The translations under genes and the position numbers were made by a program. 64,000 bases of DNA from a virus, in IMG/VR virus record IMGVR_UViG_3300021425_002093, positions 1-64,000 of that record. One strand, given 5' to 3'. Below the pieces are notes generated by a model, which searched no databases, was not told the origin of the DNA, and worked only from the letters and a program-made list of their open reading frames with translations. Position 1 is the first letter of the stretch. Every line of letters starts with the position of its first letter. This document shows positions 14,544-14,760 of the stretch, one piece after another.

Positions 14544-14612
14544 TGGTGGAGGCGAGGGGATTTGCACCCCTGTCCGCACTTCCTAATGACAACACGTCAT
14601 CGAATACTAAAG
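14544..14612 (-). ncRNA. ssrA: tmRNA acceptor piece (permuted ssrA)
   Basis: The tRNA-like 3' half has T stem AGGGG/CCCCT with loop TGCAAAT, acceptor strand CGCCTCC, discriminator A and encoded CCA. CGCCTCC pairs with the GGGGGCG start of the coding piece with one G-T pair. The CCA adenine is at 14544. The 5' boundary is approximate and may overlap the last codons of the pqqA-like gene. Confidence 0.85.
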
Positions 14613-14671
14613 TACATGGTGACTTCAAAGCCAGCACGTACATCAATTGCTTTAGGTTTTGTCCACTTCAT
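14597..14671 (-). CDS. pqqA: PqqA-like precursor peptide
   Basis: The 24-residue peptide starts [14 protein letters not shown] and ends with the PqqA signature [10 protein letters not shown]. The Glu (16) and Tyr (20), which PqqE cross-links to make pyrroloquinoline quinone, have the correct spacing, and the length matches genuine PqqA. A very strong AAGGAGGT lies 8 nt before the ATG. A late octamer and a sigma70-like promoter both precede it. No pqqB, C, D or E is visible, so maturation would need the host pathway. It could also be a decoy, another modified peptide, or a leader for the tmRNA downstream. Confidence 0.82.
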   Translation of the reverse strand: [24 protein letters not shown]

Positions 14672-14690
14672 AATAGTGACCTCCTTAGAG

Positions 14691-14698
14691 TATTTATA
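14691..14698 (-). promoter_or_regulatory. T4-type late promoter of pqqA/tmRNA
   Basis: A perfect TATAAATA on the minus strand, 20 bp before the pqqA ATG. It would give a very short leader carrying the AAGGAGGT ribosome-binding site and continue into the tmRNA. Confidence 0.8.
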
Positions 14699-14731
14699 TC
14701 AAACAAGAAGATCACTAACAAAACATATGCA

Positions 14732-14760
14732 ATATTACACTAAAATTACGTCTATGTCAA
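14732..14760 (-). promoter_or_regulatory. sigma70-like promoter of pqqA/tmRNA
   Basis: TTGACA, 17 bp, TAATAT on the minus strand. It lies upstream of the late octamer, so the pqqA/tmRNA unit could be transcribed both early and late. Confidence 0.7.

Follow-up and report, generated by a model that had tools for sequence, protein, structure and literature searches.

A pqqA gene overlapping the 5' end of a permuted tmRNA gene in a T4-like phage, and its relation to stand-alone pqqA genes in phages of methylotrophs

PqqA, the peptide substrate of the PQQ pathway, is known in phages from the Lake Baikal T4-like methylophage populations VP_266 and VP_139, where it was suggested to increase the PQQ available to methanol oxidation (Coutinho et al. 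2020, PMC7678222). On the host side, Methylophilaceae genomes have 3-12 pqqA genes together with a single set of pqqBCDE, one strain having an extra pqqDE (PMC4109929). The methylophage Melnitz (PMC9004378) is T4-like and has a two-piece tmRNA, while permuted tmRNAs of this kind, with a tRNA domain, a spacer and a tag ending in LAA, are collected in the Rfam family RF04321.

Here we report on a 64,000-nucleotide stretch of viral DNA (the window), which is part of a 143,934-base T4-like virus record (IMGVR_UViG_3300021425_002093). Like the Baikal viruses it combines PqqA with a T4-like genome, but both Baikal populations carry methanol dehydrogenase, whereas no PQQ_2 / methanol dehydrogenase domain was found in our record, and its pqqA is joined to ssrA, a tmRNA linkage that is not described for Baikal (one population only). 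The window has in common with Melnitz similar surroundings of the two-piece tmRNA (ThyX, cell wall hydrolase) and a similar pqqA leader (AAGGAGGGCACTACTATG in Melnitz, Shine-Dalgarno AAGGAGGT in the window); in Melnitz, however, pqqA is unannotated and a tRNA-Leu gene starts about 14 nt past its stop, in the place that the tmRNA occupies in the window, and ssrA lies elsewhere without pqqA. As for the stand-alone copies in Methylophilaceae, an extra substrate-peptide gene comes without extra pqqBCDE, but those copies are chromosomal and have no tmRNA link. Finally, in contrast to RF04321 members generally, the 5' end of the window tmRNA is common to a protein-coding gene.

We found pqqA unreported in phages in the Melnitz and OM43-phage papers searched (the Melnitz paper has PQQ only in the medium), and text searches returned no paper on a link between pqqA and tmRNA. 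Hence, the phage PqqA family is known from one report, while its breadth and the tmRNA overlap appear to be new within the literature searched. An earlier note on this DNA had missed that report as well as the overlap, the insertion-like look of the locus and the generality of stand-alone pqqA in methylophages.

The pqqA gene and its upstream signals

The capsid protein, TerL and ribonucleotide reductase of the virus are 64%, 48% and 67% identical, respectively, to those of Melnitz; for the capsid (MCP) and TerL the Sinorhizobium phages phiN3/phiM12 are closest (68.6% and 57.5%), with Melnitz next. The window PqqA resembles the PqqA of several Pseudomonadota to much the same degree (59-67%), and a host search with its own RAGFEVTMY signature gave no match; a methylotroph is one possible host. 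Three tRNA genes lie near the tmRNA gene, all on the minus strand: tRNA-Arg(TCT) at 12388-12465, tRNA-Asn(GTT) at 15141-15217 and tRNA-Thr(TGT) at 16101-16175. The features of the locus are listed in Table 1.

Table 1. Features of the pqqA-ssrA locus (positions in the window)
Feature	Position	Strand	Basis or remark
Upstream 79-aa gene	14757..14996	-	Homologue adjoins tmRNA without pqqA in L476
Sigma70-like promoter TTGACA-17-TAATAT	14732..14760	-	10/12 consensus positions; only plausible
T4-type late promoter octamer TATAAATA	14691..14698	-	Enriched in window; precedes RBS and starts genome-wide
Shine-Dalgarno AAGGAGGT	14679..14686	-	7 nt from ATG; sequence
pqqA	14597..14671	-	24 aa; Pfam PF08042 and TIGR02107; purifying selection in relatives
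Overlap ATTCGATGA (pqqA Ile-Arg-stop codons and conserved tmRNA 5' end)	14597..14605	-	tmRNA comparisons, late promoter +1, RF04321 start
Permuted (two-piece) tmRNA gene ssrA	14308..14606	-	Rfam RF04321, ARAGORN
Acceptor piece (P2 3' side, T arm, acceptor strand, CCA)	14544..14605	-	Rfam alignment, sequence; 5' limit inferred
Inner P2 helix, 5' strand GTGTTGT	14589..14595	-	Covaries with 14404-14410
Spacer between tmRNA pieces	14443..14543	-	Rfam alignment position; removal in maturation inferred
Coding piece, GGGGGCG start to tag stop (3' limit undefined)	14308..14442	-	ARAGORN, Rfam alignment
Inner P2 helix, 3' strand GCAATAC	14404..14410	-	Covaries with 14589-14595
Tag AANDDYYGDVALAA	14308-14352	-	ARAGORN
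Downstream 94-aa gene	13955..14239	-	No family assigned; served to find related loci

The 24-residue ORF scored 37.3 bits against the Pfam PqqA family (E 2.5e-9; cut-off 21.1) and 38 bits against the NCBIfam PqqA equivalog (cut-off 20), well above the chance expectation for all ORFs in the 64-kb window. The two residues that PqqE cross-links in the core Glu-x-x-x-Tyr are in place as Glu16 and Tyr20, the leader retains W-x-x-P, and both length and ribosome-binding site (RBS) fit the family norm (a short ORF of 22-29 aa). By these profile matches the ORF is a genuine PqqA, as the earlier note had proposed from the Glu16/Tyr20 core, and we predict that it is most likely cross-linked by PqqE/PqqD and converted to PQQ; no relative with a solved structure was found. 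Neighbouring pqqBCDE genes, which are usual for PqqA and not required, are lacking: no convincing match to PqqB, C or E was found anywhere in the record, the window included, and PqqD is absent from the record, so that the lack of PQQ biosynthesis enzymes noted before for the window extends to the whole record.

Of the upstream signals that had been pointed out, the RBS is indeed strong and well placed, and the late octamer proves to be a genuine element of the genome. Specifically, TATAAATA occurs 13 times in the window (3.0 expected), and of the 28 copies that the complete record contains, 24 are on the minus strand; many copies lie immediately 5' of an RBS and a start codon, that of the major capsid gene among them, and the copy ahead of pqqA is 19 nt from its ATG. 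The proposed sigma70-like promoter does match the consensus, but the region has 6 such sites where 4.5 are expected, which is no enrichment, and an early promoter is therefore only plausible.

The permuted tmRNA and its overlap with pqqA

The sequence at 14308-14606, which reaches into the 3' end of pqqA, scored 89.9 bits with the RF04321 (tmRNA_permuted) covariance model, the gathering threshold being 47. The acceptor stem pairs GGGGGCG with CGCCTCC, the third pair being G-U (G3-U), a T arm is present, CCA is encoded and the tag frame AANDDYYGDVALAA has the LAA end. The inner P2 helix, which begins 1 nt past the pqqA stop, covaries across the window and three related loci (L254, L290 and L258); the outer P2 pairing is short and can be drawn in two ways (AUUC/GRAU or GAU/AUC), so that good support is confined to the inner helix. 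Judged by score and anatomy this is a real, permuted tmRNA, for which cleavage into two RNAs and participation in trans-translation are presumed. SmpB is absent from the record, and host SmpB would therefore be required.

The direct linkage of pqqA and tmRNA seen in the earlier note turned out to be an overlap, with the RF04321 model starting 10 nt inside pqqA and the final pqqA codons (ATT CGA TGA) coinciding with the nine nucleotides of the conserved tmRNA 5' end. The pair also recurs in related phages, where a search for it had been suggested. L254 has an intact pqqA, coding for 23 residues, followed by a permuted tmRNA with the tag AANDDYYGDVRLAA; although 11 of 25 codon positions differ between its pqqA and that of the window, the two genes agree throughout their last 15 nt (TTTAGTATTCGATGA). 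In L290 the tmRNA and 15 PqqA residues are retained and the leader is lost, which indicates that pqqA is dispensable in some relatives. In all three pair-bearing genomes RF04321 begins 9-10 nt within pqqA. A search with a C-terminal pattern gave 28 matches, mostly out of frame, with PqqA only in L254 and L290, and a loose pqqA-tmRNA pattern gave no PqqA among the at least 120 matches listed. We rejected TGTAY 5' of the tmRNA in L474, L476 and L477 as decayed pqqA, since the search pattern itself demanded TGTAY.

Scanning for this tmRNA type gave 29 distinct 5' contexts (window counted), of which three have pqqA. The motif ATTCGNTGA, or a near variant such as GTTCGCTGA, is found at the equivalent position in tmRNAs with quite different upstream genes, relatives without pqqA included, and hence it belongs to the tmRNA. 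Moreover, NATAAATA is situated exactly 5 nt ahead of the 5' motif in eight of the 29 contexts (0.005 expected at a fixed position), representing perhaps three or four independent lineages; these genes are in L486, L500, L474, L478, L490, L497, L507 and L509. By the geometry of T4 late promoters, this spacing would make the motif's first base the +1 position. Given this placement of the late promoter, the tmRNA in these eight contexts would be a late product from its own start site.

In L476, a homologue of the upstream 79-aa gene (64% identity over 45 aa) abuts the tmRNA directly with no pqqA in between, an arrangement that reads as the empty site for pqqA insertion. In the window, 80 additional nt (RBS and pqqA) separate the octamer from ATTCGATGA, and Ile, Arg and the stop of pqqA come from the first nine bases of the tmRNA. 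Thus, as judged from these comparisons, pqqA seems to be a minigene of approximately 80 nt placed between the late promoter and the tmRNA, within the tmRNA 5' leader, and the anatomy implies a common transcript. An unrelated ORF in L474 (approximately 10060-10110, ...CTEINRDIR*) likewise terminates on the tmRNA 5' motif (ATTCGTTGA); this end of the tmRNA can thus lend a stop codon to genes other than pqqA. In Melnitz, we also observed a glutamine riboswitch aptamer (RF01739; L251, 46398-46446) that follows ssrA on its 3' side and precedes the gene for the late-transcription coactivator; from its position it looks set to control the downstream gene and not ssrA, contrary to the published reading.

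Stand-alone pqqA in phages and their hosts

By tblastn, PqqA is encoded by cultured Methylophilales phages (nine records; Melnitz, Venkman, MEP, P19250A) and by MW202481, the genome of an uncultured phage from Manatee Spring, with pqqA lacking annotation or lying under another frame in every record inspected. Melnitz, Venkman, MEP401/402/301 and P19250A have an intact pqqA and no pqqB-E. Scanning IMG/VR for GFEVTMY gave at least 120 stretches; PqqA is encoded and pqqB-E absent in every one of the 120 listed. Conservation of GFEVTMY is built into that scan by its pattern, and a further scan therefore relied on the N-terminal half alone: each of its 122 ORFs runs through an intact core with a stop after residue 23, and the cross-linked Glu and Tyr are invariant (122/122), consistent with the conservation expected from the earlier note. 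For codons 11-23, outside the selection pattern, pS is 0.71 and pN 0.062 (pN/pS 0.088), which indicates that phage pqqA is under strong purifying selection. As a host-type metabolic gene that is selected and present in lytic phages, it would count as an auxiliary metabolic gene.

Among 157 IMG/VR pqqA loci, 102 share at least one gene with the cultured isolates or MW202481. About half of the 157 have a strong hairpin right after the stop: 54% of the 45-base segments 3' of pqqA fold below -10 kcal/mol compared to 7.6% of random 45-mers, so that phage pqqA is typically a compact unit whose 3' end is structured. Taken together, stand-alone pqqA is common among phages of methanol-consuming bacteria, and in most cases annotation has passed it over. 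Records of Acinetobacter phage MD-2021a (H21, H22; L001, L002) were rejected as sources of phage PqqA; they are seemingly contaminating bacterial chromosome contigs carrying pqqBCDE / a pqq operon, with ppk in H21 and ppk and fur in L001.

A genome scan for PqqA of the MWT[KT]PxATEM type gave matches that, where named to order, were nearly all Methylophilales, the others being unresolved Beta-/Proteobacteria or Nitrosomonadales MAGs. Nearly every Methylophilaceae genome (149/150) has pqqA, mostly in several copies, compared to 31 of 399 Pseudomonadota genomes, and 86 of the 108 placed Methylophilaceae copies are not beside pqqB. With many pqqA copies and one set of the other genes, substrate-peptide dosage is a native habit of Methylophilaceae, and the phages appear to copy this habit of raising the dose of PqqA alone.

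Proposed role and alternative explanations

Our data suggest that the locus is probably a functional PqqA minigene in front of a two-piece tmRNA, which supplies PqqA to the PQQ enzymes of the host late in infection. The transcript would then be translated from the strong RBS, and host PqqD/PqqE and the remaining host pathway would turn phage PqqA into PQQ. This might keep PQQ-dependent dehydrogenases, in a methylotrophic host those for methanol, active while host messages vanish. Each PQQ consumes one PqqA as stoichiometric substrate, and the substrate gene alone would therefore be the cheapest way to increase flux. The same transcript would double as tmRNA precursor, the tmRNA being made then or alternatively. 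Points that weigh against this explanation are the closeness of capsid and TerL to Sinorhizobium phages, the similar distance of the window PqqA to several Pseudomonadota, the lack of a methanol dehydrogenase domain in the record and the decayed leader of L290. Among the options raised in the earlier note, a boost to host PQQ has the best support. Another of them was diversion of host PqqE; a decoy that occupies host PqqD/PqqE and lowers PQQ or blocks another radical-SAM pathway has nothing specific in its favour and is scarcely credible: a decoy would not need the cross-linked residues that are invariant in the phage set, the window PqqA also retains W-x-x-P, and a Baikal phage has PqqA together with methanol dehydrogenase (PMC7678222).

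The overlap itself invites other explanations. The transcript might serve either as pqqA message or as tmRNA precursor, with mutually exclusive and self-limiting products. Cutting at the tmRNA 5' end would strip pqqA of its stop and give a non-stop message with stalled ribosomes, and tmRNA from the same RNA would tag PqqA with AANDDYYGDVALAA for degradation, a built-in feedback. Such a switch would fit the use of the conserved tmRNA 5' end as the last 9 nt of pqqA and the closeness of the inner P2 helix, which a terminating ribosome would cover; we consider it unlikely, however, since the tmRNA may retain a 5' extension or translation may end before processing, and the pair is present in three genomes only, one of them decayed. 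Position and overlap would also agree with a leader peptide, where translation of pqqA would chiefly control how the tmRNA folds or matures, with the peptide as a secondary product, but other phages conserve pqqA away from any tmRNA and keep the PqqA-specific residues, which makes this highly improbable. That pqqA is a passenger, acquired close to a tRNA-like gene (the tmRNA here, tRNA-Leu in Melnitz) and now being lost from this lineage, could explain the decayed leader in L290 and the small share of tmRNA contexts with pqqA (3/29); with the window and L254 ORFs intact and preceded by a good RBS in spite of their differing codons, we regard it as very unlikely.

Phages of methylotrophs commonly bring the substrate peptide of a cofactor pathway and not its enzymes, and the gene is so short that annotation overlooks it even in cultured isolates. 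The exact overlap between a protein gene and a tmRNA 5' end is an unusual arrangement, raising the question of how one transcript yields both products; if the switch were true, one RNA would encode a cofactor precursor peptide and a ribosome-rescue tmRNA as alternative products. Since pqqA is common in phages of methylotrophs, viral control of PQQ, and of marine and freshwater methanol oxidation, becomes testable with existing phage-host pairs.
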